IMG/VR virus record: IMGVR_UViG_3300044638_004682
Location: 1 to 24,657 of that record
Length of the DNA stretch: 24,657 nt
DNA from: a virus
Reading direction: 5' to 3' (one strand)
Within the stretch, counting starts at the first letter, position 1; each line of letters opens with the position of its first letter. The notes under the pieces are model-generated. The model was not told the DNA's origin, did no database searches, and saw only the letters and a list, made by a program, of their open reading frames with translations. Both the position numbers and the translations under genes were made by a program. Positions 103-21,462 of this stretch are shown here, piece by piece.

Positions 103-192
103 GCCTAACGTATAAGCTCAGCGATAGCCCACTGCAACTAGCCGAACCATCAGGGGCCAAAGCGGGCTATTCGCTGTAGCGACTGGTTGGGC
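103..192 (+). repeat. attC site 1 (complete, 90 bp)
   Basis: The left core GCCTAAC (103-109) and right core GTTGGGC (186-192) bracket an imperfect palindrome in which CAGCGATAGCCC pairs with GGGCTATTCGCTG, leaving one unpaired T as expected for an extrahelical base. The site is nearly the same as attC 4 at 2000-2088. Recombination would occur between G186 and T187. Confidence 0.9.
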
Positions 193-230
193 TCGGATGC
201 CTTTTAATTTCCGACAAACTCAAAATTACT

Positions 231-917
231 ATGAACGATAAAACTAACGACTTCACCGACTTCCCGAAAATGGCGCGACTCTCACGCGAGTGCATAATCA
301 CTGAGAAAATCGACGGCACAAACGCGCAAATCTATATCGCGCCGCTATCCGCAAATGAACCCATACCCGAACACTCGCTTGGCGTCTTTGACTTTGGCGG
401 GGCGCTGCACTATATGGCCGCCGGTTCCCGCACCCGCTGGATCACTCCGCAGGATGACAACTTCGGCTTTGCTGGTTGGGTCGCTCGCAACTTCGACCAA
501 CTTAAAACGCTCGGCGCTGGGCGTCACTTTGGCGAATGGTGGGGCGCTGGCATTCAGCGGAAATACAACATGGAAGAAAAGCGGTTCAGCCTATTCAACG
601 TGTCGCGCTGGTGCCTACACGGTTCGACGCCTAATAAAATCGACAATGCCGATCCACGGATCGTGAAACTGCAAGACGTGCTACCTCCATGCGTCGGACT
701 GGTTCCGGTCTTGTTTCGTGGTGAGTTCACGACGGGCGCTTGCGAGTCGGCACTCGACCAACTGCGCAGCTTCGGGAGCTTCGCAAAAAGTGGATTCATG
801 AAACCCGAGGGAATCGTCTGCTTCCACCTCGCCGCAAACGCTGGGTTTAAGAAAACACTGGAGCGCGACGAAGCTCCGAAGTCTTCCTGCTTGCCCAACG
901 TTCAAGCTCAGCGATGA
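231..917 (+). CDS. RNA ligase family nucleotidyltransferase (cassette-borne)
   Basis: The 228-residue product carries the signature of covalent nucleotidyltransferases of the Rnl2/RNA_ligase type. Motif I is KIDGTN at residues 26-31, with K26 the expected AMP-accepting lysine. There is an SRTRW stretch near 66-70, a motif III-like GEWWG (101-105), a IIIa-like FSLFNVSRW (119-127), motif IV PEGIV (192-196) and a motif V-like FKKT (206-209). Such enzymes adenylylate themselves with ATP and seal nicks in RNA. The protein stops about 20 residues after motif V, so it is a stand-alone catalytic domain without the C-terminal domain of T4 Rnl2. Its last eight residues, LPNVQAQR, are read from an attC half site. 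The start follows an A-rich leader without a Shine-Dalgarno. The family is clear from the motifs; the biological role (RNA repair, defence or counter-defence) is inference. Confidence 0.85.
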   Translation: MNDKTNDFTDFPKMARLSRECIITEKIDGTNAQIYIAPLSANEPIPEHSLGVFDFGGALHYMAAGSRTRWITPQDDNFGFAGWVARNFDQLKTLGAGRHFGEWWGAGIQRKYNMEEKRFSLFNVSRWCLHGSTPNKIDNADPRIVKLQDVLPPCVGLVPVLFRGEFTTGACESALDQLRSFGSFAKSGFMKPEGIVCFHLAANAGFKKTLERDEAPKSSCLPNVQAQR

Positions 918-928
918 CCACAACACCA
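893..928 (+). repeat. attC half site (left half only)
   Basis: GCCCAAC at 893-899 followed by GTTCAAGCTCAGCGATGACC matches the left arms of the complete sites in this array. No pairing right arm or GTTRRRY core follows before the next gene at 958. The core matches the TTGGGC at the start of this cassette (187-192), so it is the original left half of the RNA ligase cassette's own attC. Confidence 0.75.
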
Positions 929-957
929 GCGACTCCCGAAGCAAAACGAAACGAATT

Positions 958-1227
958 ATGAACCAAATTGAAATGATAGAACGTGTCGGACGCGCTATGC
1001 GTGCGATGAAAAAAGAACCCAAGGCGTTGCTCTTTATTGACGGTAACACGGACTGGACGTGCGATGCGCAGGAAGTCTGCGGAGTGCATGTGTTTCACGG
1101 CGTTGATCTACGGTGTTTTTACGCGGACCATTTTAGCGACGAGTGCCCGTTCGTGCCGCTTGGCGCGACCGATTCCGAGATCGACTTTCGGGACAGGAAA
1201 CGATTCGCGGAGGCTTGGTCTGCCTAA
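958..1227 (+). CDS. Hypothetical cassette protein, 89 aa
   Basis: I do not recognise this family. The product starts MNQIEMIERVGRAMRAMKKE, with a basic amphipathic N-terminal helix, followed by a beta-like hydrophobic stretch (ALLFIDG) and a cysteine-containing middle (C35, C41, C53, C63). The ATG lies directly after an AAACGAATT leader like those of other cassette genes here. The stop TAA is supplied by the left core (GCCTAAC) of the attC at 1222. It shares one cassette with the RNA ligase, because the attC that once separated them has lost its right half. Coding is likely from its position, leader and stop within attC. Confidence 0.7.
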   Translation: MNQIEMIERVGRAMRAMKKEPKALLFIDGNTDWTCDAQEVCGVHVFHGVDLRCFYADHFSDECPFVPLGATDSEIDFRDRKRFAEAWSA

Positions 1228-1317
1228 CGCTTGAGGTGACCTATGGCCGCAAAACATGAAACTAATAAAACAATCAACGGGCCAAGCGCGGACATTAGGT
1301 CTAGCGACTGGTTAGGC
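1222..1317 (+). repeat. attC site 3 (complete, 96 bp)
   Basis: Left core GCCTAAC (1222-1228) and right core GTTAGGC (1311-1317). The arms GACCTATGGCCGC and GCGGACATTAGGTC pair imperfectly with one extra A. The arm sequence differs from the other sites but the outer GCGACTG before the right core is the same. It closes the fused RNA ligase/958-1227 cassette. Confidence 0.88.
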
Positions 1318-1361: not shown

Positions 1362-1526
1362 ATGACCTGCGAAAAATGCGGTGGATATGTAGAATGGAAG
1401 GGGCCGATGATAAACCTAACGCACACCGAGTGCTCACGCTGTGGAGCCATAAACTGTCAGATTCCTGAGTCGTATGATGAAGACGACACGCTAGAAACAA
1501 ATGGAGATTCTTTTGGGGAATCATAA
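1362..1526 (+). CDS. Small zinc-ribbon-like cassette protein, 54 aa
   Basis: The 54-residue frame begins MTCEKCGGYVEW and contains two cysteine knuckles, C3-x2-C6 and C24-x2-C27, with a further C32. This spacing is typical of a minimal zinc ribbon. The tail is acidic (YDEDD). No catalytic motif is visible, so a metal-binding structural or nucleic-acid/protein-binding role is the most that can be inferred. The start follows the leader TAAACGAATAACTAA. The TAA stop is immediately followed by the ATG of the next gene with no spacer, pointing to translational coupling in a three-gene cassette (1312-2082). Confidence 0.7.
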   Translation: MTCEKCGGYVEWKGPMINLTHTECSRCGAINCQIPESYDEDDTLETNGDSFGES

Positions 1527-1709
1527 ATGAAAATACATACGAACAAACAAGATGCGCTCGCCGCACTAAAAGAATATCCGGACACTGTATCCGCACTAGC
1601 ACAAAGGCTAGGGGTACATGAAGAGTGCGAGGACTCATGTTGCGCCGTTTATGATAGCGTTAAATTTTACGCAGATGACGGCAAAACTGTGTGCCGATAT
1701 TCCGAATAA
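1527..1709 (+). CDS. Hypothetical cassette protein, 60 aa (paralog of the 1-95 fragment)
   Basis: The protein has an N-terminal helical part (residues 1-30, containing ALAALKEYPDTVSALAQRLG) and a C-terminal half with conserved cysteines and KFYADDGKTVCRYSE. The C-terminal half is almost the same as the fragment at 1-95, which supports selection on the protein. Unlike that copy it is not followed by an attC: another gene begins 15 bases after its stop. The ATG abuts the stop of the zinc-ribbon gene. The family is unknown to me. The ALAQRLG segment could be the first helix of a helix-turn-helix, but the fold is too short to claim. Confidence 0.75.
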   Translation: MKIHTNKQDALAALKEYPDTVSALAQRLGVHEECEDSCCAVYDSVKFYADDGKTVCRYSE

Positions 1710-1724
1710 CTAAACGAAAACTTT

Positions 1725-2024
1725 ATGGCTAAATGTAAAACAAGAACCGAATGGCTCGACCTGCTGCATAAATGTCAGAACGGCGACGCCACCTGCATGT
1801 TTGTGCTGGGAGAAATCGAGCGCGAGAACGCACGGCTGCGGGATGCTCTACGCGAGGCACTCGACGGCGCAGCCTACACGGTTAGCGTCGATGCGATTCT
1901 CGACCCTAGCACTCGGCATGTTGGGCTGGAAAGACTCGCTCGTCATCGGTCACTGCTACCGGATGCGGTCGATGTCTGTCCTGATTCCGAATCTTCTCTG
2001 CCTAACGTTCAAGCTCAGCGATAG
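1725..2024 (+). CDS. Small coiled-coil cassette protein, 99 aa
   Basis: The product is a 99-residue, mostly helical protein with a central coiled-coil stretch ERENARLRDALREALD (about residues 32-47). The same signature in variant form occurs in the cassette proteins at 3669 and 3073. The C-terminus reads into the attC and ends with the attC-encoded tail LPNVQAQR. It starts 15 bases after the preceding stop, with the leader TAAACGAAAACTTT and no Shine-Dalgarno. No enzyme motif is visible and function is unknown. It is the third gene of a cassette running from 1312 to 2082. Confidence 0.7.
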   Translation: MAKCKTRTEWLDLLHKCQNGDATCMFVLGEIERENARLRDALREALDGAAYTVSVDAILDPSTRHVGLERLARHRSLLPDAVDVCPDSESSLPNVQAQR

Positions 2025-2088
2025 CCACTGAAACTAAGCAAACCATCAGCGGCGTATGCGGGCTATTCGCTGTAGCGACTGGTTAGGC
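2000..2088 (+). repeat. attC site 4 (complete, 89 bp)
   Basis: Left core GCCTAAC (2000-2006) and right core GTTAGGC (2082-2088). The left arm CAGCGATAGCC pairs with GGGCTATTCGCTG with one unpaired T. It is very similar to attC 1 through both arms. The last 25 bases of the preceding gene lie inside it. Confidence 0.9.
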
Positions 2089-2103: not shown

Positions 2104-2373
2104 ATGAGCACTACAAATAAACGAATAGCTGAGTTCCGCCGCAAACTGCGCGCTCTAGTAGTTGAATACAATGTCTCCGTAGAAGTTGATACTGATGACG
2201 GTGGATTCCCTGACCACGTGGAGTTCCGATTAAATGGTGATGGCATTAATCACCTGTCGGGGGATTTAGGCGCGTCAACATCCTCGGGGACTTATTGGGA
2301 TTTTGGCGACGGCGGGTCGCAAACACTTGATTCGCTTAAGTCTGATTTGGCTAACGCTCAAGCTCAGCGATGA
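2104..2373 (+). CDS. Hypothetical cassette protein, 89 aa
   Basis: I chose the ATG at 2104, just after the previous attC; an upstream in-frame ATG lies inside that attC and is unlikely. The protein has a basic helical N-terminus (NKRIAEFRRKLRALVVEYN) followed by a Gly/Asp-rich, beta-like part (SVEVDTDDGGFPDHVEFRL and TYWDFGDGGS). It ends LANAQAQR, the attC-encoded tail in a slightly altered form. There is no recognised family. It is the only gene of cassette 2083-2445. Confidence 0.7.
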   Translation: MSTTNKRIAEFRRKLRALVVEYNVSVEVDTDDGGFPDHVEFRLNGDGINHLSGDLGASTSSGTYWDFGDGGSQTLDSLKSDLANAQAQR

Positions 2374-2451
2374 AGAGGAATGGCGCGCCCTGTGCGGCTC
2401 GGAGCACAGGGCTTGACAGTCCTCGGAATTCGCTGTAGCGCTTGGTTAGCC
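2349..2451 (+). repeat. attC site 5 (complete, 103 bp, with a strong tip hairpin)
   Basis: Left core GGCTAAC (2349-2355) pairs with right core GTTAGCC (2445-2451). CAGCGA pairs with TTCGCTG in the arms. The tip holds a perfect 9-bp inverted repeat, GCCCTGTGC (2387-2395) and GCACAGGGC (2404-2412), stronger than in the other sites. The left core does not match the TTAGGC at the start of its own cassette (2083-2088), unlike the other complete cassettes. Confidence 0.85.
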
Positions 2452-2461
2452 TCAGTTGCTT

Positions 2462-2884
2462 TCATTCTATATCGAGCGAATCAAAACAACGCATCATACG
2501 CTCAACTTCTTCTACCGAATAGTTCTCGGCAGATAGCTTCTTGCCTTTGCTATGGAGTATAATCTTTCGCTTCTTCGATTTTAAGTATGCTACCAAAACA
2601 CCGGATAGCGCAGTAGCGACGCCTAGAACAGTAACGCAAACGCCAGAACTTCCAGACGAATCGAAATGACTCCAATGCTTAATTTCAGAAACTAAATCGG
2701 AATCTTTATTTATGAACGACCTCAACTCCTCCAATACTTCAAAATTACCTTTTATCTGCTTTACGCCAAATTCAAGTTCGGGCGGAAGTACATTTAGCAT
2801 TTCTTCCGACTCTCGAAGCAGGGTCTGGATTTCGTGGTCGTTGTTAAGGGCGGCGATTCGATTACTGTTGGTTGGAAAAGTCAC
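2462..2884 (-). CDS. Backward-oriented single-pass membrane protein, 140 aa
   Basis: This is the only cassette gene that faces against the attC direction, which normally implies its own promoter. The GTG at 2884 is the only good start. The N-terminal 75 residues are polar and helical (EIQTLLRESEEMLNVLPPE). One transmembrane segment follows at about residues 80-101 (VCVTVLGVATALSGVLVAYL), then a positive stop KSKKRK. A short C-terminal cytoplasmic domain has a beta strand (KIILHSK) and an acidic helix (SVEEVERMMRCFD). That layout of helix, basic linker, strand and acidic helix recalls, from memory, the effector-associated EACC-type components of conflict systems. The resemblance is one of architecture only, and I regard it as weak. 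It occupies cassette 2446-2986 alone. Confidence 0.75.
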   Translation of the reverse strand: MTFPTNSNRIAALNNDHEIQTLLRESEEMLNVLPPELEFGVKQIKGNFEVLEELRSFINKDSDLVSEIKHWSHFDSSGSSGVCVTVLGVATALSGVLVAYLKSKKRKIILHSKGKKLSAENYSVEEVERMMRCFDSLDIE

Positions 2885-2899
2885 AATGCGTTTCTTTTT

Positions 2900-2992
2900 G
2901 GCTAACGATTAAGCTCAGAGACGACCACTCTCCCCGACACTCGAACAATTTGAGTGCCAAGCGTGGTCGTTCTCTGTAGCGACTGGTTGGGC
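2900..2992 (+). repeat. attC site 6 (complete, 93 bp)
   Basis: Left core GGCTAAC (2900-2906) and right core GTTGGGC (2986-2992). The arms CAGAGACGACCAC and GTGGTCGTTCTCTG pair with one unpaired T. A second small stem, CACTC (2938-2942) with GAGTG (2952-2956), forms the tip. The right arm is identical to that of attC 8. Confidence 0.9.
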
Positions 2993-3072: not shown

Positions 3073-3399
3073 ATGAACCGCAACGAATATCTAAGCCTAG
3101 CTGGCGAATACTGCATAAAAATGGAGTGGAATCACGACGCGATTCCCGAGCTTGCTGAGTGCCTCGAACGGCACGACAAAAACATAACTCGATTCCTTGA
3201 GGGCGAGAAGATCGCCCGCCAATACGCAATCGACAAAGGCGTCGAGCTTCAGCGCCACAACTTCCTGCTCATGCAGGCGGGCAATGCCCTACGCGATGCA
3301 CTCGCTTTCGAGGGCGTAAAAATAGGCGATTTACCCCGTGAGATAAAAGAATGGGAGGCATTGGTGTCTGCATTGCCCAACGTTCAAGCTGACTCATGA
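3073..3399 (+). CDS. Hypothetical helical cassette protein, 108 aa
   Basis: The product is acidic and helical throughout and begins MNRNEYLSLAGEYCIKMEW. Residues about 67-80 read LMQAGNALRDALAFEG, resembling the ENARLRDAL signature of the cassette proteins at 1725 and 3669. No domain is recognised. It ends LPNVQADS, reading into attC 7, whose left arm differs from the others so that the tail changes from QAQR to QADS. The start follows CAAA without a Shine-Dalgarno. A 7-bp inverted repeat lies 25 bases upstream. It is the single gene of cassette 2987-3459. Confidence 0.72.
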   Translation: MNRNEYLSLAGEYCIKMEWNHDAIPELAECLERHDKNITRFLEGEKIARQYAIDKGVELQRHNFLLMQAGNALRDALAFEGVKIGDLPREIKEWEALVSALPNVQADS

Positions 3400-3465
3400 C
3401 CACTCTACCTGATACACAAACAATTAGCGGGCCAAGCGCATCTTGGCTCCAGCGCCTGGTTGGGC
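3375..3465 (+). repeat. attC site 7 (complete cores, atypical arms, 91 bp)
   Basis: Left core GCCCAAC (3375-3381) and right core GTTGGGC (3459-3465) are intact. The arms pair poorly beyond GCTG/CAGC, and the main hairpin is instead GCCAAG/CTTGGC close to the right core. The site may be chimeric or decaying. Confidence 0.75.
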
Positions 3466-3490: not shown

Positions 3491-3676
3491 ATGAAACTAA
3501 TACCGGCATCATCTAAGTTACTTCTCCGTCGCTTCGTCCTACTGAGTCCTAGCGATCCCGTTCTATTTTCTGAGCGCACGGGAATTCGCAAACCAATGCT
3601 GCAAATTGCTGGGTGGCGTATAGTACCAGCGTATAACTGCCCCGTTTGGAACCGAGGAAATCCTAACCATGAATAA
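3491..3676 (+). CDS. Possible small basic cassette protein, 61 aa
   Basis: The frame starts at the ATG after TTCCGAAATAACC, a leader also seen upstream of the gene at 3073. A longer reading would begin inside attC 7 and is rejected. The product is basic and Arg/Pro-rich (MKLIPASSKLLLRRFVLLSP) with no recognised domain. It overlaps the next gene by eight bases. Position and leader favour coding, but composition is not distinctive and a non-coding leader cannot be excluded. Confidence 0.45.
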   Translation: MKLIPASSKLLLRRFVLLSPSDPVLFSERTGIRKPMLQIAGWRIVPAYNCPVWNRGNPNHE

Positions 3677-3917
3677 CGAAAACCCATACTACGATTTATA
3701 CGTGAAAGAAACCAAAGCGCACAACGCGTGCGCTCTACGCGAACAGTCGCTCCTCAAGGACGTGGAGTTTGCGGGTAGTGAAATGGAAAGACTTGAACGA
3801 GATAATGCCCGCCTTCGTGAGGCGTGCCACGTATTCCTCGAAGCGCGTAAGCATAACGGATACGGAATGGATGATGCGGAGGTGGCAATCCGTTCCTCTC
3901 TTCTGCCCAACGTCTAA
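3669..3917 (+). CDS. Small coiled-coil cassette protein, 82 aa
   Basis: The product is helical and contains a coiled-coil core EMERLERDNARLREACHVFL (about residues 37-56). This is the same ER-(E/D)-NARLR-(D/E)-A signature as in the 1725-2024 product, though the rest of the two proteins differs. The C-terminus LPNV and the stop TAA lie in the left arm of attC 8. The ATG overlaps the end of the small frame before it, consistent with translational coupling. Function is unknown. Confidence 0.7.
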   Translation: MNNENPYYDLYVKETKAHNACALREQSLLKDVEFAGSEMERLERDNARLREACHVFLEARKHNGYGMDDAEVAIRSSLLPNV

Positions 3918-3998
3918 GCTCAGAGGCGACCACTTCTCCCTGATACTCGAACAATTTGAGTGCCAAGCGTGGTCGTTCTCTGTAGCGACTGGTTAGAC
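3905..3998 (+). repeat. attC site 8 (complete, 94 bp)
   Basis: Left core GCCCAAC (3905-3911) and right core GTTAGAC (3992-3998). The arms CAGAGGCGACCAC and GTGGTCGTTCTCTG pair with an unpaired T. From the tip stem to the right core it is identical to attC 6. The unusual right core GTTAGAC belongs to the next cassette, whose own left core at 4363 is the matching GTCTAAC. Confidence 0.9.
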
Positions 3999-4056
3999 AT
4001 CTGAGTCTTGGGTTTCCGAAGATCGTGCATTGATAAAAACTAAACGAATACTGAAA

Positions 4057-4368
4057 ATGAAAACAGTCAGCGCTACTCTAATGGTAACCTACAAGGGCGA
4101 CATATCCGCAAAATTGAAATCCTGCGGGACTAAATGTCCGTTTCGCGTAAATTCACTCGGGGATACCGAGCAACTTGTGGCAGCAGAAAACCCGAAGTGG
4201 GGGGCTAGTGAACAGGCGTTCATGCTGCAATACTTAGGTGACCTGATATTAGCGGATTGCAGGGAGAACGGGGAAGTTTTGTGCCATAGCTGGATAGTAT
4301 CGAAGGATTCCGATGGAGTGCAGCAGATAGCAATACCGCTTCCGCACGCCGATTCCGAAACTGTCTAA
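4057..4368 (+). CDS. Hypothetical cassette protein, 103 aa
   Basis: I chose the ATG at 4057, which follows TAAACGAATACTGAAA, a near copy of the leader before the gene at 1362. A TTG at 4030 would add nine residues. The protein looks like a compact mixed alpha/beta domain (MKTVSATLMVTYKGDIS, then SWIVSKDSDGVQQIAIPLP). It has cysteines at residues 23 and 27 (CGTKC) and later at 67 and 75. No family is recognised. The stop TAA is part of the left core GTCTAAC of a truncated attC. It is the last cassette gene before the phage region. Confidence 0.7.
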   Translation: MKTVSATLMVTYKGDISAKLKSCGTKCPFRVNSLGDTEQLVAAENPKWGASEQAFMLQYLGDLILADCRENGEVLCHSWIVSKDSDGVQQIAIPLPHADSETV

Positions 4369-4380
4369 CGTTGTGTAGTC
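4363..4380 (+). repeat. Truncated last attC (left core only)
   Basis: GTCTAAC (4363-4369) matches the TTAGAC that begins this cassette (3993-3998), so it is the genuine left core of its attC. After AACGTT the sequence departs from all other sites in the window, and no GTTRRRY right core or GTAGCGACTG arm occurs before the phage genes. The array therefore ends inside an attC. Confidence 0.7.
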
Positions 4381-4551: not shown

Positions 4552-4749
4552 TTATTGGCCCAGTCCGGCAGGCAGCGAAATCGGCCCGCACTTCTGGCAG
4601 GCGAGGGCGACGAGCTTGTGGGCGGAGTAGCCAGCGAGGCCGGACTCCCTGCACGTTGGGCAGCGGACAAGCTGCGACGGCTGCCAGTCGATGAGCGCGT
4701 AGGCCCTGAGATCGGCGGGATGCACGCTGTCGCGGTCTGGCAGGCTCAT
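4552..4749 (-). CDS. Small zinc-knuckle protein, last gene of the phage late operon, 65 aa
   Basis: The product has paired cysteine motifs C30-x2-C33 (CPTC) and C51-x2-C54 (CQKC), the spacing of a zinc ribbon, and otherwise low-complexity flanks. Its ATG overlaps the stop of the upstream membrane protein gene (ATGA), so it is translated with the lysis-like block. A terminator follows the TAA directly. Function is unknown. Small zinc-binding proteins of this kind are often found at the ends of phage operons, and a regulatory or host-modifying role is only a guess. Confidence 0.7.
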   Translation of the reverse strand: MSLPDRDSVHPADLRAYALIDWQPSQLVRCPTCRESGLAGYSAHKLVALACQKCGPISLPAGLGQ

Positions 4750-4898
4750 GCTTTATCGGCCTCCTTTTTCCATTTCCAAAGCTGGTAGCTGATGCCGATT
4801 ATCAGCGATACCATTCCGAGGATAGCGTTTAACTGTGCGATGGTTAATCCGGTTACGGTCAGCCAAAGTGCGGAGAGGAGGTGGCGGATTCGGTCCAT
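4746..4898 (-). CDS. Small one-helix membrane protein, holin-like, 50 aa
   Basis: The 50-residue frame starts MDRIRHLLSALWLTVTG and has a hydrophobic stretch at about residues 23-40 (ILGMVSLIIGISYQLW). It ends with the basic tail KWKKEADKA. This layout, with a short polar N-terminus, one membrane helix and a charged C-terminus, suits a small accessory holin or lysis regulator. The gene begins 3 bases downstream of the 3TM holin gene and ends in an ATGA overlap with the zinc-knuckle gene. Lysis function is inferred from context only. Confidence 0.65.
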   Translation of the reverse strand: MDRIRHLLSALWLTVTGLTIAQLNAILGMVSLIIGISYQLWKWKKEADKA

Positions 4899-4901
4899 GT
4901 G

Positions 4902-5336
4902 TTATTTTTTAGAGGTGTAGCGGCTACCAAGCCACCAGAAGATTGCGGTGAATGCGGCGAATTGGAGTTCGGACACCATGCCCGCTTGCACCTCCTCGGG
5001 TGCTTTGAAATAGGCGAGTGAAAGGACGCCGAGCAAGGCCCAAGTGAGGCCTGGGCGCGTGAAGGCACGCAAAGCTTCGACGATGCCAAGCAGGGATGCC
5101 ACCCAGCGTGCCGCGCCTGCGGGGATGGGGATTGCGTCGTTGGTCTTTTGCGAAGCGGTGAAGGCGTCCCAAGCGGATTGCTTTTCAGCGGCGGCGACCT
5201 TGGCGTTCATCAGCAGGATTTCGACCTCGGCGTTTTTCTTTTTTTGCCAAGTCTCGAAAAACCCAGTGCCGAGATGAAGGAGCGAGCCGACGACGCCGCC
5301 GCCCGCTGCGTTGAATAGGATGTCGATGAGGCTCAT
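4902..5336 (-). CDS. 3TM-type phage holin
   Basis: The 144-residue protein has a glycine-rich weakly hydrophobic N-terminus (AAGGGVVGSLLHLGTGFF, about 10-27), a charged helical middle and two clear C-terminal hydrophobic segments (about 97-110 and 122-137). It ends in FWWLGSRYTSKK. That plan, with the R-P turn before the second helix and the WW-x-GSR ending, matches my knowledge of the GTA/phage 3TM holin family. It would permeabilise the inner membrane at the end of infection. The start ATG overlaps the stop of the upstream protease gene (ATGA). Confidence 0.72.
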   Translation of the reverse strand: MSLIDILFNAAGGGVVGSLLHLGTGFFETWQKKKNAEVEILLMNAKVAAAEKQSAWDAFTASQKTNDAIPIPAGAARWVASLLGIVEALRAFTRPGLTWALLGVLSLAYFKAPEEVQAGMVSELQFAAFTAIFWWLGSRYTSKK

Positions 5337-5779
5337 TTTTTGAGTAGGTAAGTTTTGACGACGCGCCCGACGAAGGTCTCGGCGGTGACGCGGGTGGAGT
5401 CGTAGTGCGAGTTATTGAGGCCCGTGGCAGTCCATCCCTCGGCGGTGAGTTCGGCGAGCTGGTGGACGACGTTGCCCGAGGGCGTGCGGAAAACGACGAG
5501 GTCGCCTTGGCCCAGCACGCGGAAGTCACACCGCTCGATCATGCACCACGCCACGCGCCCCTCGCCTGCGGGGATGTAGGGTTGCATCGAGCCCGTGCCG
5601 AGGACGGCGACGAGCGGGTAGCCCTCGCGCAGCATGCCGTCGATTTCATGCGGCGCGACGGTGGATGAGGGAGGCAGGGCTTTGACCATGTTACGGTGAC
5701 GTTGGATTTCCTCTGCAACGATGACGGCCATGACCGCAGCGCCGAGGCAGGCGAGGAGGGCGATTAGGAGGAGCTTCAC
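5333..5779 (-). CDS. Signal-peptidase-like membrane protease with a Ser/His active site
   Basis: The start is the GTG at 5779, overlapping the upstream stop as GTGA. The 148-residue product begins with a membrane anchor (KLLLIALLACLGAAVMAVIV, residues 2-21). It then shows the signal peptidase/S24-S26 order: GTGSMQPYIPAGE with nucleophile S64 (61-73), QGDLVVFRTP (91-100), VVH with H106 and GLNNSHYD (120-127), ending VGRVVK. The position that is lysine in bacterial signal peptidase I is histidine here, as in the ER-type (SipW/Sec11) subfamily. It would cleave a membrane-proximal substrate outside the cytoplasm. It sits between the tail fibre companion and the holin, an unusual place. Fold and anchor are well supported; substrate and role are unknown. 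Confidence 0.75.
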   Translation of the reverse strand: MKLLLIALLACLGAAVMAVIVAEEIQRHRNMVKALPPSSTVAPHEIDGMLREGYPLVAVLGTGSMQPYIPAGEGRVAWCMIERCDFRVLGQGDLVVFRTPSGNVVHQLAELTAEGWTATGLNNSHYDSTRVTAETFVGRVVKTYLLKK

Positions 5780-6213
5780 GAATAGGAGGCGGCGAGGGTG
5801 AACAGTCCGTCGATTTGCGCTGGGCTCATGCCGAGGGCGGCGGCCATGGTGTTGAGCGTGGCGTCGTCGCGCTTGACCTCGGTGGCGTAGTCCCATGCAT
5901 CGCGGGCGTCCTGTGGCGCGGCGGCGAGGGCGGCCTCGACCATGCCGCGCATACCCGATGCGTTGATGGCGCGGCGGATTTGCAGCGGAGTAACGGGCGA
6001 GGGTGGCGGCGCGGGCGAGCGGTACGGGTTGGCCCAGAGCAAGGGCAGCTCGGCCTCGACGTTCTCCTCGTTGGCCGTGGTCGGGGATTCGAGGCCAATG
6101 CGGTTGTCGATGACGTAGCTGTTGCCCGAGATGCCCGTGACGTTCACGTGGACATCGGGCGCGACCGTGACGGTCATGGGCCAAGGGGAGATTTCGATTT
6201 CAGTGAGTGGCAT
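5776..6213 (-). CDS. Tail fibre companion protein, 145 aa
   Basis: The first 60 residues are beta-rich (EIEISPWPMTVTVAPDVHV) and a Pro-rich linker follows. The C-terminal half begins VTPLQIRRAINASGMRGMVE and is a compact helical domain. I recall similar short domains (TPLQIRRA.N..G.R..VE) downstream of fibre genes in many phages, usually annotated only as hypothetical. It is 4 bases downstream of the fibre gene and overlaps the protease start. A role as fibre assembly or attachment partner is inferred from position. Confidence 0.65.
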   Translation of the reverse strand: MPLTEIEISPWPMTVTVAPDVHVNVTGISGNSYVIDNRIGLESPTTANEENVEAELPLLWANPYRSPAPPPSPVTPLQIRRAINASGMRGMVEAALAAAPQDARDAWDYATEVKRDDATLNTMAAALGMSPAQIDGLFTLAASYS

Positions 6214-6217
6214 GGTA

Positions 6218-8836
6218 TTAGTTGGCGCGGTGACCCATGATGGTGGTGCGGACGACTGCGGTGGAGTTGGAGCCCACCCAAAACTCGTTTGAAGCGGCCT
6301 TGCGCGTGACGAGTGTGGTGGGGTTGATGCCTGCGGTGAGTGCGCCGCTGGCCTTGTACTGCGAGCCTGCCGAGTCGCTGCCGATGGTGGTCGTTGGCGT
6401 GCCCGTGGTGGTCTGCTCGATCGTGTTGATGATGTCGGCGGTCGAGTCGATCAAAGCGCCTTCGAGTAGGCGCTGATTGCCGTTCGCCCAAGTATCGGCG
6501 CTGATGCGCCAATCGCGTTTATCCGTCACCGGAGTCACGCCGACGAGCCGAGCCTGATTGCCGCCGATGGTGGTCGCGTCGTCGAGGACGGCGATGGGCT
6601 GCACTACGGGCAGGGAGAGGGCGCCGCCGAACATGATCTTCACGTTCTTGATCGAATAAGTTCCAGTCCCTGTGTCTTCGATGCAAAAGCGGTGACCAGT
6701 GTAAAACTGCGCGGGAACAAACCCCTGCAAGGTAAAGGTTCCATTTCCGCTAACTAGCCCATTGGAAACAGGCGTATTATTAACGTCAATAAAGGCCTCT
6801 GAAGCGGCTGACATAGACCAGTTTGCGATTGTAAACTGAACGACAATATATCGACCATTTGCGACATATGTACCACCAAAGTAAAAGTCAGCTAGCCGAG
6901 TTCTGCCCACACCAGTTACGGTTACATCCAATTCAGAGTTTGCATTATCAACGGCAAGCGACCCGTTCGCGCTTCTATCCCAATCCGTTCCAGCTGCGCT
7001 GAAAACGCTATTGCGAGAGGTGTCCGTGATGCGTTGCTGCATACTCCCACCCGCGACCACCCAAGCCGGATACTTGCCCGTCGAGCGGTGAAACGCACGG
7101 TCGGCGTCGGTCAGAGAACCGAGAATAAAGCAGCCCACGGGCGCGGGGCCTGCGGGCCAGTTGTAGCCCGTCAGGTGGTAGGTCGGCGTGAATCCAGTAG
7201 AAGCGAGCCAGTCGGGGATGCTTGTCCCAGATGTTGCGTATGTTCCTAGGCTAGTTATATCTACGTCATCGACTTCAATATACGGAGACGATGTGCCAGC
7301 CGTAATCTTAATTCTCAGTTTTATGGTTCGTCCCGAGTATCGCGTGCGGAAGTCAGACAATTGCCATTCCCGATTAGCGAAACCATTAGTGCTCAATCCG
7401 CTCTGATTTAGACTAAACTCGTTTCCCGTTTTTCCGTGGTTATTTCCAAAAAAGTGCGCAGTCAAACACGAGTCTGTAAATGTAGGCCATACGCCGGGTG
7501 TTGCACTAGGGCCCACATGAAAAACACGATTTCCTTGTCCCGATGGAAATGCGGTCGTTGGTATGGCAAGTATACCAACCCACTCCAGCGTAGCCGCGCC
7601 CGCCACCCAGCCTCGCGGGTTGTTCACCGCGTCGAACGGGCCTTGTATCTGCGCACGGTTCGGCGTTGCGCCGTCGCTGTTCAGGTAGCCTTGCGGGGAA
7701 TAGGCCGTAAAAGCGGACTGGATGGCGGCGTCGGCTGCTGCCAGTGCTGCGGCTGCCGTGGTCTTCTCGCTGTCCAGCTCGTTTAGCGCCGCCTGCACGG
7801 TCGTAGCCGCGATGTTGCCTGCGGGCGTGTTGGTGACGGTGGAGGCTGTCTGGTCGCCCGTGTTCGTTCCCGAACTGGTCCCGCTGAACGTGCCCGACTG
7901 GGTTGCCAAGGTGCCAAGGCCGAGGTTGGCGCGAGCGGTGGCTGCGTTGGCGAGGTCGGACAAGTTAGCGGATTTATCGGCTTTAAGAGCCTCCGCAGCC
8001 GTGGCGCGGGCGGTCTCGGCGGCGAGATCAGACGCGCTTGCAGCACCGAGCGCCGTCCGCCCTGCCGCCGCGCCCTCCGACTCCATCAGCGCGTTCGCAA
8101 GCGGCGTCCCGTGGTAGTGAGTCGACACCAAAATTTGACCTTGGTTCGCGTGCACCCGCAGCACGTAGCCCACGCGCATGATCCGCTGCGCCTCGCCGCT
8201 CGGCTGCGTTGCGGTGAGCGCTCCTGCAACCGTTGGCGAAAGCCACAGCTCCGCGCCGTCCGTAAAAGCCGACGTGTCGAGGTCGCGCACGATGCCCGCC
8301 ACCGTCACAAAGCCAAAGGCGTTATTCGCAATCCCGCTAGATGTGGTCACAAGCCCGATCATCTTTTGCGCCGTCGAGCTGTTGGCCGTAGCCTTCGCCA
8401 CCGTCGGGCGCTGCCCCGTCGCGCCCGTGACGTAAACAGCATCGCCATTTACAAGCGCCACGCCCGACGCGTTGCGCACGTAAACCGTCTCCTCCTGTCC
8501 GAGCTGCAAAGCCACGCCGCCCTCGGTCACGATCTCGGCGGTTTTGTCCACGTCGTTCCAGCGGATTAAACCCGTCGCTGCCGTCGGAGCTGCGGCGGTG
8601 TCGAGCTGTAATCCAGACAAGGACGTAACGCCCGCAGCACTACGCTGCACGATGCGGCCAGCGGTGTTCGCGCTGGTTGATCCGTGCGTCGTCGTCAGGG
8701 CCGCATGGGCGGCGATTGCCGAAGTCGTAGGCGTGGAAACGGGGAGCGTCGATAGCTCGGCGGATTGGCCGTCGTTAAGTTCGATGCGGTCGCTAGAAAG
8801 CGGGGTAGCTTTGAGTGTGAGGCCGTTGATTGTCAT
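6218..8836 (-). CDS. Large tail fibre / receptor-binding protein, 872 aa
   Basis: This is the largest gene in the window and encodes a typical modular fibre. Residues about 1-250 are Thr/Ala-rich and beta-like. About 260-345 contain fibre repeats (KSANLSDLANAATARANLGL, then TSSGTNTGDQ). About 418-540 and 600-735 look like two beta-sandwich, possibly carbohydrate-binding, modules. The DNA of these two modules is visibly more A/T-rich than the rest. The C-terminus (VTDKRDWRISADTWANGNQR, then RKAASNEFWVGSNSTAVVR) resembles a trimeric tip. The ATG overlaps the stop of the small upstream gene (ATGA). Host receptor binding is inferred from architecture and from its place at the end of the tail genes. 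Confidence 0.8.
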   Translation of the reverse strand: MTINGLTLKATPLSSDRIELNDGQSAELSTLPVSTPTTSAIAAHAALTTTHGSTSANTAGRIVQRSAAGVTSLSGLQLDTAAAPTAATGLIRWNDVDKTAEIVTEGGVALQLGQEETVYVRNASGVALVNGDAVYVTGATGQRPTVAKATANSSTAQKMIGLVTTSSGIANNAFGFVTVAGIVRDLDTSAFTDGAELWLSPTVAGALTATQPSGEAQRIMRVGYVLRVHANQGQILVSTHYHGTPLANALMESEGAAAGRTALGAASASDLAAETARATAAEALKADKSANLSDLANAATARANLGLGTLATQSGTFSGTSSGTNTGDQTASTVTNTPAGNIAATTVQAALNELDSEKTTAAAALAAADAAIQSAFTAYSPQGYLNSDGATPNRAQIQGPFDAVNNPRGWVAGAATLEWVGILAIPTTAFPSGQGNRVFHVGPSATPGVWPTFTDSCLTAHFFGNNHGKTGNEFSLNQSGLSTNGFANREWQLSDFRTRYSGRTIKLRIKITAGTSSPYIEVDDVDITSLGTYATSGTSIPDWLASTGFTPTYHLTGYNWPAGPAPVGCFILGSLTDADRAFHRSTGKYPAWVVAGGSMQQRITDTSRNSVFSAAGTDWDRSANGSLAVDNANSELDVTVTGVGRTRLADFYFGGTYVANGRYIVVQFTIANWSMSAASEAFIDVNNTPVSNGLVSGNGTFTLQGFVPAQFYTGHRFCIEDTGTGTYSIKNVKIMFGGALSLPVVQPIAVLDDATTIGGNQARLVGVTPVTDKRDWRISADTWANGNQRLLEGALIDSTADIINTIEQTTTGTPTTTIGSDSAGSQYKASGALTAGINPTTLVTRKAASNEFWVGSNSTAVVRTTIMGHRAN

Positions 8837-8997
8837 GGGAGTGTGCGGACTTCGACGGTTGCGAGCGTGCGATATGTGCCGTCAGGGAGCGTGCGGATTT
8901 TTGAAACTGGGATTGATGCCGTGGCCTTGAACTTGGCAGAAGGTCGAAGCCATTTAATTGCGGCGGTTATGGCCGTGCGATATATGACAGCCTTCAT
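8833..8997 (-). CDS. Small basic tail-region protein, 54 aa
   Basis: The 54-residue frame begins MKAVIYRTAITAAIKWLRPS and ends TYRTLATVEVRTLP. Its stop overlaps the ATG of the fibre gene as ATGA, and its start lies 3 bases after the stop of the 119-residue protein gene, so it fills the space exactly. It is basic with beta-like C-terminal repeats (KIRTLPDGTYRTL and EVRTLP). Function is unknown; a fibre connector is possible. Confidence 0.65.
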   Translation of the reverse strand: MKAVIYRTAITAAIKWLRPSAKFKATASIPVSKIRTLPDGTYRTLATVEVRTLP

Positions 8998-9000
8998 CGG

Positions 9001-9360
9001 TTACAGCGCGACGGCCTTGAGTTGCCCGCCTTGCACGCGCAGTAGTTCGCCGGTGCTGAACAAGCAACGAAGCGTGTAGTGGTAAACCTGATTCACGGCG
9101 AGCAGCGCCGTCTTGGCGGCGTCGTGGTGCACTTGGCCGATGCCAGACGCGGCGGTGATAATCAGGATTTCGTTTGCGGCCGAGGTAAGCGAAAAAATGG
9201 CGTCGGCATCCGCGTCAACCTCGCTCGCCTTTACGACGAACTTGAAGGTGCATCCGCTAATGTTCACCGCTTCGCCAGCGCTCTCGGGGTCAATCACCGT
9301 AAAGGACCAAATCGGGGAAGACCCGACGGCCAAGCAAAGGTTCGATGTCGCGCAACTCAT
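9001..9360 (-). CDS. Probable baseplate/tail-tip beta-sandwich protein, 119 aa
   Basis: The protein has the pattern SSPIWSFTVIDPESAGEAVNISGCTFKFVVKA (split here: SSPIWSFTVIDPE, then VNISGCTFKFVVKA) followed by further strands. This resembles the N-terminal Ig-like domain of baseplate upper proteins in siphoviruses, where a linear potential, a short turn and a second strand repeat. It is small, lacks a catalytic motif, and lies immediately before the fibre module. A role linking tail tip and fibre is inferred from that position. A 44-base gap separates it from the upstream gene. Confidence 0.6.
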   Translation of the reverse strand: MSCATSNLCLAVGSSPIWSFTVIDPESAGEAVNISGCTFKFVVKASEVDADADAIFSLTSAANEILIITAASGIGQVHHDAAKTALLAVNQVYHYTLRCLFSTGELLRVQGGQLKAVAL

Positions 9361-9404
9361 GTCCCCACTTTTTGGATACGCGCTTGCGTGTCAAGGGTGC
9401 TCGA

Positions 9405-10052
9405 TCAAACCAAGGTGTAAAAAGTTGATGTCGCGGTAAGACCTCCTCCTGTAATAGGCATAAAGTCGCCGATTCCCTCCATATACCCCGTACCATACCA
9501 ATTAAGAGTGTACCCAAACAGGCTAAATGTTCCGCTTCCGGTGCTGTCGTCCTCACTGGAAATTATGTAAACGTTAAAAAAAAAGGGTTCACCCGGGAAA
9601 TACTCACCAGCAAAAGTCCTAGCGCCAAAGAAAAACAGGTAATAAAGTCGCCACTCGGAGGATACGTAGGCTATTTTAAAGGTCGCGTAGTAATTCCACC
9701 CATCTTCACTTCCACCTGCACTATCGCCACTCCCATCCAAGAACTCGAGATCGGTTAATGCGACCCTGTCAACTGGCTCGACAGAATTAGTGACCGTATG
9801 AACCTCGCTTAATGTTGCCGTAATTGGAGGATACGGGGTCTGTGGATACTCTGAAGAACCCGTGGGCGTGAAAACAACCTCTTGAAGCAGCCACCACAAC
9901 CGGCACGCCTCGGCTAATCCTTCGTCGCCGCTGGTTTCGGTCAGCGTCACGTATTTATAGCCTCCGCCTGGCCATGTCGCCGCGTCCCGATTGAACGGGA
10001 ACGGGCAGCGCTTGTCAGGCCCCCTGTATTTGAATGTCGGAGACGTCGGCAC
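9405..10052 (-). CDS. Tail-region structural protein, 215 aa
   Basis: The start is a GTG at 10052, one base after the stop of the upstream gene; no ATG is well placed. The protein is rich in Tyr, Phe, Gly and Ser with few charges after residue 60 (WRLYYLFFFGARTFAGEYFP), suggesting a beta-structured virion protein. No family is recognised. Its DNA is more A/T-rich than its neighbours, with a run of nine A on the plus strand near 9577, which points to recent exchange. It lies between two small tail-tip genes. Confidence 0.6.
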   Translation of the reverse strand: MPTSPTFKYRGPDKRCPFPFNRDAATWPGGGYKYVTLTETSGDEGLAEACRLWWLLQEVVFTPTGSSEYPQTPYPPITATLSEVHTVTNSVEPVDRVALTDLEFLDGSGDSAGGSEDGWNYYATFKIAYVSSEWRLYYLFFFGARTFAGEYFPGEPFFFNVYIISSEDDSTGSGTFSLFGYTLNWYGTGYMEGIGDFMPITGGGLTATSTFYTLV

Positions 10053-10053
10053 G

Positions 10054-10338
10054 TTAATCAGGATTGTCGGTCAGAAAATTGCGCGTCGTCACCACGCCGC
10101 CGTCGTACACGGTCCACTCCTCTGGGCCGTAGCCGTCAGGCAGTCCATCGCCGCCGCCTCCCGCGTCAGGCGGCGCGCTGCCGTCAATCACGATTCGGTT
10201 GTCCGACACGCTCACCTTCACTCCGTTCGTTCCTTCCATGCTTTCAACCGCACGCAGGAATTTAAGCATCTGGTTGATGCGCACGCGGAAGATATTAAAC
10301 GCAGCCGGTGCCTCTGAAATGTCTTCTGGTAGTGACAT
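10054..10338 (-). CDS. Small tail-region protein, 94 aa
   Basis: The N-terminal half is helical (FNIFRVRINQMLKFLRAVES), followed by a short beta-rich stretch (GVKVSVSDNRIVIDGS), a Gly/Asp linker (DAGGGGDGLPDGYGPEEW) and a C-terminal tail. The NIFRVRINQMLKFLRAV helix is reminiscent of short trimerisation helices in fibre-associated proteins. It is 5 bases downstream of the 306-residue gene. Function is unknown. Confidence 0.62.
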   Translation of the reverse strand: MSLPEDISEAPAAFNIFRVRINQMLKFLRAVESMEGTNGVKVSVSDNRIVIDGSAPPDAGGGGDGLPDGYGPEEWTVYDGGVVTTRNFLTDNPD

Positions 10339-10343
10339 GGCAA

Positions 10344-11264
10344 TTACATTGCACGGACCATTAACGTTGCACGCTGAAGGATGTTCCCCTTGTAGGTTGA
10401 AATGTTTGACTCGGCCACAACGAAATCTCCCGCCTTTATCATTGCGATGTACTGCGTATCAGTTGGGGCAGTTAATGGGCTAAGTGTGTTGGCTAAATCC
10501 GCAAAATCGGAAATTGATTGACCTGTGGTAACCAGAATGGGGTCGAAAGATTTTTCAGGCGTGAAATCATCAAATGCAGTAATTCCAGAAGTAACACCAG
10601 GAAGCGCGTAATCGTACCGCATATAAGAGGTGGTTTTCACCTGCTTGGTGGCGCGGTACGGCAGGACTTTCAAAGCATTACCGTAAACCAACGAGTTACT
10701 AAATAATACCGAGCCAATGACGCTGAACGTGTTAGTGGTAACAGCTGTTACTTTATAGTTTGTCGCCGTAGATGCATCGACCCCGGAAATCGTGCAAGTT
10801 ACCCACATAAAGATTGAGTCGTCCACGAGGTATCCATGCGCCGTTGAAGTGAATGTTGCAGTGTTTCCCGAAACAGAACACGCCGTTAGTATTTTGGTTG
10901 ATCCGGCAACACCAGCAGGAAGTCCGACCATTTGAAAAAGCGTGCTTCCGTTTGGCTCGGTGCGAATTGCTGGGATGTTCGACCACTTGCGCGTGAACGA
11001 AACCAGCCCCGATTCTGCCTCACTCAAGTCGTAGTCTCCAATGCAATACGCATCGCCAATCGACACCGGCGAGCCAGAGAAATTGGCGTCCGTTGCTGGC
11101 ACAAAAACAGCGCCGAGCGTCGGCGGCACGTAGCGGTCAGCCAACTGGTACAGCGTCTGATGCACCTCCTTGGTCGCGTTATCGCCTACATCCGCGAATG
11201 GGTAAACGATCTTTGCGGGACGGTCAAAAACGGGCGATGTGGTAACGTGGGATTCGTATGACAT
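10344..11264 (-). CDS. Tail protein following the tape measure, 306 aa
   Basis: The protein is beta-rich and Thr/Ser-rich. A central section, about residues 125-195, looks like an inserted Ig-like or carbohydrate-binding module (TACSVSGNTATFTSTAHGYL, then NTFSVIGSVLF). The N-terminus (MSYESHVTTSPVFDRPAKIV) and C-terminal part (MIKAGDFVVAESNIS) are better conserved in style. From its position right after the tape measure it may be the distal tail or tail-tip organiser, but I see no motif that proves this. The ATG follows ACACATC with no Shine-Dalgarno. Confidence 0.65.
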   Translation of the reverse strand: MSYESHVTTSPVFDRPAKIVYPFADVGDNATKEVHQTLYQLADRYVPPTLGAVFVPATDANFSGSPVSIGDAYCIGDYDLSEAESGLVSFTRKWSNIPAIRTEPNGSTLFQMVGLPAGVAGSTKILTACSVSGNTATFTSTAHGYLVDDSIFMWVTCTISGVDASTATNYKVTAVTTNTFSVIGSVLFSNSLVYGNALKVLPYRATKQVKTTSYMRYDYALPGVTSGITAFDDFTPEKSFDPILVTTGQSISDFADLANTLSPLTAPTDTQYIAMIKAGDFVVAESNISTYKGNILQRATLMVRAM

Positions 11265-11276
11265 GATGTGTATTGT

Positions 11277-12632
11277 TTATCCGCTCTTTGGCATCAGCAG
11301 CTTCTCGATTCGCTCTAAAATATCCTCGGGCTTTTTCCCTTGGTTGTCTTTTATTACTTGGTTTTCCGCTTTTGTCTTTTCCGTGCGCTTGGCGTCCTCC
11401 TCGCTGATAACGACGCCGTTTCGCATGAGCTGGCCCTTCTCGTTGCGCGTGCGTCCCGTGCCTTCGCCAGCCAAGTCCATCGGCTGCCCTTTTCCGCCGC
11501 CCGCCTTCTCGGCGTTAAGCTCGGCGTATTTCAGACGCAGGTCGCCCAGTGCCTTTATGTCTTCTGCCGCCTGCGTCCTTTGTGCCTTCGCGTATGCCTC
11601 TTGCCCCTTCTTTTTAGTCTCCGCGATCTTCTGCTCAAGCGTGGCGTTCACCCAAATGTGATTGTAGCGCGCCTCGGCTAAAGCGGCCTCGTCCTTCTCC
11701 TGTTTTTCCACCCACTCTTGATGGGCGTTTTGCATCTTCTCAAATTCGGATTGACGCTCTTGGCTCAGTTTTTTCTCAAGCTCGCCAATCTCAGCGTTGA
11801 GTTTTAGCACGGCAACAAGTGAGCCAGTGTTATCCTTCACCGCCGCTTCGGCTGCCTTGCGTTGCTTGTTCAGCGCTTCGAGCTTTTGATCGTCCGTCAT
11901 TTTTGACAAAGCCGCAGCCGCCTGAAGCGCGGCGATTTCATCGGACTCTTTTTTTAATGATGCGTCAGCCTCGGCCAACATCCGTTTCTTTTTTTCATCC
12001 GCCGCTTTCTTCTCGGCATCCGCAGTGGTCTTCACCATTCGCGCCTGCGCGGTTTTTGATTCCTCTATTTCGGCCTCTAACTTTGCAATCTCACTGAGTT
12101 GATCGAGTGATAGCTCGCGCATCTTTATGCCGCCCGCCTCGCCACGATTCCCGTTAAATTGGTACTCGTTTGCCTTCTTGATTTCGGCAATTCTGTCCTC
12201 TGCCGCCTTTTGCTTTTCGCCCTCAATCTGTAGATCGGTTTTTCCTATATTTAGGCGCTCCATTATCGACTTGAGCCCACGCGCTTCGTTGTCGGCTATC
12301 GCCTTTGTGAGTTCAGCTATTTTCTCGTAATGCCCACGGATAGCATTCACGCCAGCAGACAGCGCCGCCACTCCAATCGCCGCCACGCCTAAGCCCGGAA
12401 TAAGCCCAGCCGCAGCACCGGCAGAGCCGAACGCGCCCGCCAATTTCTTTACCGTCTCAATCGCTTTCGGGCCGCTTGATGTGACTTTGTCGAGCATCCC
12501 GCCGCCCTGTGGCTGTGCCTTGGCGATGCCTTGCACTGCGCGCTCGTAAGCCTTGGTTGCCCGTGTGGCCTGCAACATTTTCGCCTCAACCTCTGAGACG
12601 TCGGCCCCAAACTTTGCTTTGATGCTAGCCAT
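11277..12632 (-). CDS. Short tape measure protein
   Basis: The 451-residue protein has an N-terminal helical region, a hydrophobic Gly/Ala segment at about 64-98 (LAGAFGSAGAAAGLIPGLGV) and then nearly 300 residues of charged coiled coil rich in Lys, Glu and Ala. This is the classic tape measure plan: it sets tail length and is later ejected. With the usual 0.15 nm per residue it predicts a tail of roughly 65-70 nm, short for a siphovirus. The start overlaps the chaperone gene by eight bases, and it is followed by tail-tip genes, all as expected. Confidence 0.78.
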   Translation of the reverse strand: MASIKAKFGADVSEVEAKMLQATRATKAYERAVQGIAKAQPQGGGMLDKVTSSGPKAIETVKKLAGAFGSAGAAAGLIPGLGVAAIGVAALSAGVNAIRGHYEKIAELTKAIADNEARGLKSIMERLNIGKTDLQIEGEKQKAAEDRIAEIKKANEYQFNGNRGEAGGIKMRELSLDQLSEIAKLEAEIEESKTAQARMVKTTADAEKKAADEKKKRMLAEADASLKKESDEIAALQAAAALSKMTDDQKLEALNKQRKAAEAAVKDNTGSLVAVLKLNAEIGELEKKLSQERQSEFEKMQNAHQEWVEKQEKDEAALAEARYNHIWVNATLEQKIAETKKKGQEAYAKAQRTQAAEDIKALGDLRLKYAELNAEKAGGGKGQPMDLAGEGTGRTRNEKGQLMRNGVVISEEDAKRTEKTKAENQVIKDNQGKKPEDILERIEKLLMPKSG

Positions 12633-13646: not shown

Positions 13647-13692
13647 GGTAGGTATTCAGTTTTTGGATACAGTTTAGAGAAAAAAAGGGGTG

Positions 13693-14211: not shown

Positions 14212-14217
14212 GGCGGT

Positions 14218-14589: not shown

Positions 14590-14604
14590 TGTCAGTCGGC
14601 TTGA

Positions 14605-15771: not shown

Positions 15772-15809
15772 GATATTTTAAGTGTAAGTGGTTGGAGTGC
15801 TATGGGAAA

Positions 15810-16844: not shown

Positions 16845-16847
16845 AAA

Positions 16848-18346: not shown

Positions 18347-18375
18347 GATGTTTTAGATAATTGAAAGTTTGTTTT

Positions 18376-20229: not shown

Positions 20230-20231
20230 TT

Positions 20232-20495: not shown

Positions 20496-20538
20496 TGCCC
20501 TTTAGTGCGTGCGCGTATTCATTTTGTCAATACTCCGA

Positions 20539-21426: not shown

Positions 21427-21462
21427 TGTATCGGATTAGCCGATACGATTGCCGCCGTCAAC

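Follow-up and report, generated by a model that had tools for sequence, protein, structure and literature searches.

How did a gene for an RNA ligase come to lie among integron attC sites beside the late genes of a phage, and what might it do there? The question is raised by a stretch of 24,657 nucleotides, hereafter the window, which comprises positions 1 to 24,657 of the IMG/VR virus record IMGVR_UViG_3300044638_004682 (G000). An earlier sequence-only reading had taken one of its genes for a stand-alone Rnl2-family RNA ligase carried as an integron cassette. With reasonable though not high confidence, we propose that it is a single-domain RNA ligase cassette in an integrase-less array, situated between the left-hand and the late genes of tailed phages probably of Verrucomicrobiota, and that the array may be shuffled by a host integron integrase (IntI), expressed by read-through and put to use in early counter-defence.

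The ORF at 231-917 on the plus strand starts with ATG and comprises 228 codons, and the window translation gives the 228-residue protein of the sequence-only reading. PF09414 (RNA_ligase) matches residues 20-196 of this protein (E 2.3e-10, 41.3 bits against a cut-off of 27), and phrog_548 (RNA ligase) matches residues 17-201 (E 2.6e-26), so that the profile search suggested by that reading bears out its family assignment. In an alignment of the window protein with 66 of the 80 kept IMG/VR relatives, K26 was found in all 67 sequences. Likewise unchanged throughout were E25, G29, N31, S66, R67, G101, E102, W103, L121, F122, E193, G194, and K207, while K208 was a lysine in 41 of the 67. We take E25, K26, G29, and N31 to represent motif I, G101, E102, and W103 motif III, L121 and F122 motif IIIa, E193 and G194 motif IV, and K207 motif V. 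With the exception of K208, the nucleotidyltransferase (NTase) motifs I, III/IIIa, IV, and V noticed earlier, including the intact K26, thus withstood comparison across the family. The motif names I, III, IIIa, IV, and V for Rnl2 are those used in the accessible text of PMC4599027. All 67 scanned ligases matched PF09414 and no other Pfam family.

A PDB sequence search with the single protein returned weak matches to citrate synthase and lipid kinase only, and the alignment profile was needed to reach T4 Rnl2 (1s68, E 8.2e-07). The AlphaFold2 model of the ligase, with a mean pLDDT of 92.7, contains a ligase NTase core, so that neither of the outcomes by which the sequence-only reading would have fallen, no profile match or no such core, came about. 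Its top PDB structure match was the Naegleria RNA ligase 6vte (Z 11.8, 158 residues, rmsd 3.5), closely followed by T4 Rnl2 (2hvr_B; Z 11.7, 156 residues, rmsd 3.1), which ranked first in Foldseek (E 1.2e-05). Rnl1 (2c5u) reached Z 9.3, and DNA ligases scored lower than the top matches, at Z about 9.5; since DNA ligases match the model as well, the fold alone cannot decide between RNA and DNA as the substrate. Taken together, profiles and model indicate that the product is probably an ATP-dependent Rnl2-like RNA ligase consisting of the NTase domain only, with K26 as the predicted AMP-accepting lysine.

The ORF ends 21 residues beyond the invariant K207, and a C-terminal domain as in T4 Rnl2 is absent, as had been noticed before. 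This absence is not special to the window copy. The frame ends at most 11 codons past the matched region in 78 of the 80 kept relatives, the exceptions being L056 and L076, which run 43 and 74 codons further, and 70 of the 80 have no more than 231 residues even when counted from the most upstream start. Since 78 relatives end alike and PF09414 stands alone in 67 ligases, the single-domain form is a family trait and not a loss in the window copy: the window ligase is related to Rnl2 but, having a single domain, lacks the canonical two-domain architecture. The family was represented by 98 stretches in the viral data, 80 of them kept, and by 82 of 50,697 phage records, with the match covering at least 80% of the ligase in 81 of the 82 and identity reaching up to 47.7%.

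The gene lies in the following array at the left end of the window.

103-192, plus strand: attC upstream of the ligase gene (bottom-strand fold, z -1.87)
187-1311, plus strand: cassette unit with the ligase gene and ORF 958-1227, from the G^TT of one R' box (186-192) to the G^TT of the next (1311-1317)
231-917, plus strand: Rnl2-like RNA ligase, 228 aa (profiles, alignment, model)
893-919, plus strand: half attC with R'' and L'' only, which provides the last codons and the stop of the ligase gene (z +2.00)
958-1227, plus strand: second ORF of the ligase cassette, 89 aa, without a family match (ORF list, Pfam, PADLOC)
1222-1317, plus strand: complete attC ending the two-ORF cassette (z -0.74)
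1362-1709, plus strand: cassette ORFs of 54 and 60 aa, with related DNA at 33010-33416 of G001 (ORF list, DNA comparison)
1725-2024, plus strand: cassette ORF, 99 aa (ORF list)
2000-2088, plus strand: attC (z -2.36)
2104-2373, plus strand: cassette ORF without a Pfam match (ORF list, Pfam)
2349-2451, plus strand: attC (z -3.98)
2462-2884, minus strand: cassette ORF in reverse orientation, 140 aa, with a relative in the G004 array (comparison of arrays)
2900-2992, plus strand: attC (z -3.26)
3073-3399, plus strand: cassette ORF, 108 aa, with relatives in the G005 and G012 arrays (comparison of arrays)
3375-3465, plus strand: attC (z -0.82)
3669-3917, plus strand: cassette ORF, 82 aa (ORF list)
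3905-3998, plus strand: attC (z -2.65)
4030-4368, plus strand: last cassette ORF, where the near-identical G003 differs in sequence (window/G003 alignment)
4363-4369, plus strand: terminal R'' box GTCTAAC, at which window and G003 diverge (window/G003 alignment)

Seven attC sites, all on the plus strand, were thus found between 103 and 3998. They were called with a relaxed script and a half-site pattern, the script overlooking some sites (2349-2451, 2900-2992, and 2083-2145 of L010); a stricter attC pattern matched the window four times and never occurred in 100 shuffles. Folding of the bottom strand is better than that of almost every shuffle for five of the seven sites, but not for the other two (1222-1317 and 3375-3465). 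Rfam and tRNA scans of the window gave no matches, and Pfam matched two of ten cassette-region proteins taken from several arrays. In G005, ORF L165:10836-11705, which overlaps the last attC, weakly resembles PAPS reductases (E 3.5e-04, short of the curated cut-off). Positions 9-93 of the window, the end of the first, cut-off cassette, are 89% identical to 1623-1707, the end of the cassette with ORF 1527-1709, so that one cassette is present twice in the same array.

In the window, the cassette of the ligase gene has a broken end. IntI cleaves at G^TTRRRY (PMC9892861, accessible text), and behind the ligase gene, from 893 onward, R'' and L'' are left while the 3' half of the site is gone, together with any fold (z +2.0); the last residues of the protein, LPNVQAQR, are encoded by this half-site. 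Because the 3' half of the ligase's own attC is missing, the cassette unit in the window is 187-1311, with two ORFs. Two related phages carry the gene in a more regular setting. G001 (38,291 bp), the source of ligase locus L002, encodes a ligase identical to that of the window at 222 of 224 residues and followed by its own complete attC, and G002 (35,129 bp), the source of L003, a ligase 85% identical and with a complete attC behind it, as read by eye. In the window the closing site is the attC of the next ORF and folds weakly. The two attC sites flanking the L002 ligase (4872-4962 and 5663-5753) are apparently identical over 91 bases, which could be the mark of a recent insertion or conversion event.

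From 4.7 kb on, the window contains phage late genes on the minus strand.

4746-24586, minus strand: phage late genes (gene annotation)
5333-5767, minus strand: conserved flank gene (gene annotation)
14605-15771, minus strand: major head protein (gene annotation)
18376-20229, minus strand: portal (gene annotation)
22098-24110, minus strand: terminase large subunit (gene annotation)
24107-24586, minus strand: terminase small subunit (gene annotation)

The window alone, with phage genes to one side only and attC sites of a type found in Verrucomicrobiota chromosomes, could be read as a chromosomal integron beside a prophage, with the ligase as a bacterial cassette gene. This is highly improbable and is already contradicted by the related phages. 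Over the aligned parts, the terminase large subunits of G001 and G002 are 95% and 93% identical to that of the window phage and the portals 94% and 98%, and in both genomes the array is enclosed by phage genes; the contig ends of G002 are identical over 127 bp, so that this contig closes on itself with the array inside. In addition, arrays occur in six related phages, and of 387 Verrucomicrobiota genomes one yielded a relative of the ligase (at E 1e-10 or better), against 98 viral stretches. That single relative (L201, L202, G070) sits at the ends of contigs, next to what by eye look like attC sequence and DNA-modification genes.

The tyrosine recombinase family PF00589 was absent from G000-G012, G014, and G017 and from 13 other records including G022, G024, and G028; among the records checked only G013 had it, a record distantly related by its terminase and free of attC matches. 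With seven attC sites, where two suffice, and no PF00589 in a record whose end lies within the array, the window holds a cluster of attC sites lacking an integrase (CALIN). A complete integron is lacking, since neither the window record nor the related array phages gave a tyrosine recombinase. The array is an integrase-less attC cluster in a phage genome. The integron cassette of the sequence-only reading therefore stands with its seven surrounding attC sites, but the array is no bacterial integron in the usual sense.

This array occupies a common locus in the phage lineage. The half-site pattern was found 7 times in G000, 6 in G001, 8 in G002, and 6, 9, and 10 times in the further terminase relatives G004, G005, and G012, with all sites of a record on one strand; the reversed pattern gave one match in these six records, in G002. 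Among ORFs of at least 100 aa in the seven contigs showing the left side, 53 of the 55 lying within 6 kb of the array are directed toward it, and to the right, 50 of 54 such ORFs within 8 kb are convergent (eight contigs). Inside nine arrays, 59 of 84 mechanically called ORFs run in the direction of the left-hand genes, G005 contributing 5 of its 13. The left-hand genes of G001 and G002 include replication and recombination functions, and being of replication type they are taken as early. Two further contigs, G022 and G024, are flanked as G001 is, by cluster 3 on the left and clusters 36 and 1 on the right, though each has just 7 gene clusters in all in common with G000-G002. G017 retains a diverged fragment of the right-flank gene, and over 7.6 kb the attC pattern had no match there. 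The terminase relatives G006-G011, G013, and G014, as well as G016, gave no pattern match either, in records that may not span the locus, and G015 had one match and one control match, which points to chance.

Two observations lie outside this locus. The members of a second phage group, G028, G031, and G018 (L172-L173, L177, and L178-L179), have another locus in common, flanked by gene clusters 52 and 17, where they carry 4, 2, and 1 attC sites. In G002, the frame of the terminase large subunit (L085:5341-8529) has 1062 residues compared with about 670 usually, and among 59 scanned G001/G002 proteins the LAGLIDADG family and the homing-endonuclease family have one match each; an intein in this terminase is therefore likely.

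Comparison of related phages shows that the contents of the array change. Window positions 193-901 match G001 at 701 of 709 bases (99%); in the attC core that precedes the ligase the matches drop to 49 of 72 columns, and behind the ligase to 48 of 105. The terminase and portal genes of the two phages are 87% identical and other backbone pieces 83-90%, which argues that in one of the phages the ligase cassette is much younger than the backbone both share. In the comparison with G002, identity is 80% for the ligase, 94-97% for the terminase, portal, and head genes, 83% for the flank gene, and 64.5% for a tail gene; owing to this wide backbone range, the contrast between ligase and backbone is weaker there than with G001. 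Over 20,293 bp the window and G003 share 99.995% identity, until at window position 4365, inside the R'' box at 4363-4369, G003 diverges. Its last 160 bases, not found in the window, match a cassette end in G027 (84% over 95 columns); as G003 ends 160 bases past the junction, it shows the array edge only, and its own array is out of view. The ligase cassette has different neighbors in the arrays of G000, G001, and G002, and the ligase is present in 3 of 9 listed arrays, some of them cut by contig ends. The presence of different cassettes at one locus in related phages suggests a changeable toolkit, which may help the virus to overcome bacterial defenses.

Whether an integrase makes these exchanges can be argued in two ways. 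As no tyrosine recombinase was found in the array phages checked, any cassette-moving recombinase would have to be supplied by another source, in the simplest case the host. Alternatively, the array might be inert to integrases and consist of old cassettes, the variation arising by phage homologous recombination or by single-strand annealing between attC repeats. Such a process would need no tyrosine recombinase, in line with the absence of one from the array phages checked, and annealing proteins resembling RecT and Sak4 are encoded among the 59 scanned G001/G002 proteins. It would also fit the half-site behind the window ligase, the look-alike attC pair around the L002 ligase, identical as far as seen over 91 bases, and the window/G003 junction, which lies at R'', whereas IntI cuts at the G^TT of R'; this particular exchange may therefore have been made without IntI. 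What speaks against an inert array is that bottom-strand structure is kept in five of the seven attC sites and that phage attC sites elsewhere are functional with IntI1 (PMC9892861, accessible text). On both sides of the ligase, identity to G001 starts at 99% and does not exceed about two thirds within attC, a drop that cassette exchange predicts and that annealing between attC sites predicts as well. On balance we regard an inert array as unlikely and favor shuffling by a host integrase.

The probable host is consistent with this preference. The strict attC pattern was found in 30 genome stretches, of which 18 bear Verrucomicrobiota names, 2 the name 'PVC group', and 10 others, including cyanobacteria. 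A search of 18 of these stretches (17 genomes) for the integron integrase TIGR02249 gave matches over the cut-off in nine genomes, all nine named as Verrucomicrobiota, compared with none of 14 controls. The attC type and the IntI-bearing genomes thus make a host from the Verrucomicrobiota likely.

Ligases of this family also occur as cassettes in a second set of phages. Over 80 ligase loci, the attC script found sites in L002, L003, L005, L007, L008, and L009, with one match in the reversed control of L004-L081; the other 74 were without attC by the script, which misses some (L010, L012, and L015). L010 has attC both by eye and by pattern, and L012 and L015 show attC remnants by eye. The sites of L005 and L007-L010 are of a different, short type (about 55-63 bases). 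The contigs tested are viral in content: L005 carries a terminase, L008 virion-structure and helicase genes, and L010 tail genes. The array of L005 also contains a DNA methyltransferase cassette (phrog_67, E 5.9e-41). The ligases of L007, L008, and L009 are identical and were therefore counted as one. A wider search from the L005 ligase, covering the best 80 of 158 matches, revealed no new array-borne ligase by the script.

In ligase trees the two cassette sets lie apart, and none of 200 bootstrap trees joins them (36 of 81 rows). A single clade was not rejected by the AU test (p 0.279), with L012 and L015 counted as cassette remnants. We rejected the stronger claim that supported branches force two captures, since with L012 and L015 labeled they force one change. 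Two captures are the simpler reading of the trees than one.

What might the ligase do for the phage? Ligases of this class join a 5'-phosphate to a 3'-hydroxyl and are thought to mend tRNA cut by defense ribonucleases, and the ends left by metal-independent RNases have to be healed before such ligases can seal them (both from the accessible text of PMC7824862). An end-healing enzyme encoded by the same phage, as expected for a Pnkp-Rnl pair, was not found: the kinase-phosphatase family PF08645 matched in none of 10 array or ligase phage records, several of them fragments, and PF13671 was over the cut-off in none of these 10, with three weak matches. As no kinase-phosphatase was found, the likeliest direct substrates would be breaks that already carry 5'-phosphate and 3'-hydroxyl ends, or else healing would be supplied by the host. 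PADLOC had no matches among the 10 cassette proteins of the window, the ligase included, and the nuclease toxins that the sequence-only reading proposed to look for in nearby cassettes were not recognized.

We propose that a host integron integrase loads and shuffles the phage array during infection, that the cassettes would be expressed via read-through from the left-hand genes, and that the ligase would seal 5'-phosphate/3'-hydroxyl breaks in tRNA or other RNA cut by host defense ribonucleases, thereby acting as an early counter-defense gene. Counter-defense is a plausible leading role. Instead, the ligase might serve an ordinary phage function, such as RNA processing, sealing of nicks in RNA/DNA hybrids, or another adenylyl transfer, as could be expected of a gene with relatives in many phages (82 of 50,697 records), no healing partner in the 10 records, and no second domain to set substrate choice. 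Its variable, exchangeable position would be unusual for a housekeeping gene, and it is present in only 3 of the 9 listed arrays (some cut by contig ends). An ordinary function therefore seems doubtful to us, and we retain counter-defense as the leading role.

It is tempting to extend this proposal. Apparently virulent Verrucomicrobiota phages may keep a landing site for the host integron beside their early genes, swaps during infection would vary the accessory early genes of clones, and one phage family's ligases might have become cassettes in two sets of different attC type because RNA sealing is a transferable defense-breaking function. The two sets could have arisen by two captures or by one capture with a later change of attC. 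We advance this wider scenario tentatively, as a possibility to which we would not yet commit. Should host integrases indeed swap the cassettes, integrons would act as a gene supply for the viruses that attack their owners, and array contents would amount to a list of candidate counter-defense genes, including RNA ligases and DNA methyltransferases.

Among known enzymes, T4 Rnl2 (PF09414; 1s68, 2hvr) resembles the window ligase in its NTase fold and in motifs I, III, IIIa, IV, and V. It differs in having a C-terminal domain at residues 244-329 (PMC4599027, accessible text), which the window ligase lacks; structural alignments give 24-25% identity, and motif V reads FKxT in the family of the window ligase. 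Phage ligases of the phrog_548 type, such as those of Caulobacter phage CcrBL9 and Rhizobium phage RHph_Y1_10, belong to the same family; by the script their loci mostly have no attC, whereas the window ligase is a cassette. T4 Pnk/Rnl1, which counters PrrC, shares the idea of sealing tRNA cut by a defense system (PMC2610378, accessible text). However, it pairs an Rnl1-type ligase with a kinase-phosphatase, whereas the window ligase is of Rnl2 type and no kinase-phosphatase was found in 10 records. HEPN toxins in cassettes are discussed in the accessible text of PMC3710099.

The closest precedent for the array is the work of Qi et al. (2023), who in the accessible text of PMC9892861 describe CALINs in phages, virulent ones included, with DNA methyltransferase cassettes, and report that five of six tested phage attC sites recombine with IntI1. 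A term search of its main text found neither 'ligase' nor 'Verrucomicrob', and the open-access literature, as far as it was consulted, yielded no description of an RNA ligase as an integron cassette. On the strength of that literature the ligase cassette appears to be new, and we regard as new also that one phage lineage has its arrays at a common locus, that near-clonal variants exist, and that ligase cassettes occur in two phage sets. While phage integron arrays have so far been reported as scattered cases, the one described here is a locus shared within a lineage, behind genes that point at it; in comparison with the CALINs in the accessible text of Qi et al., a single lineage has a common array locus, and near-clonal phages differ there.
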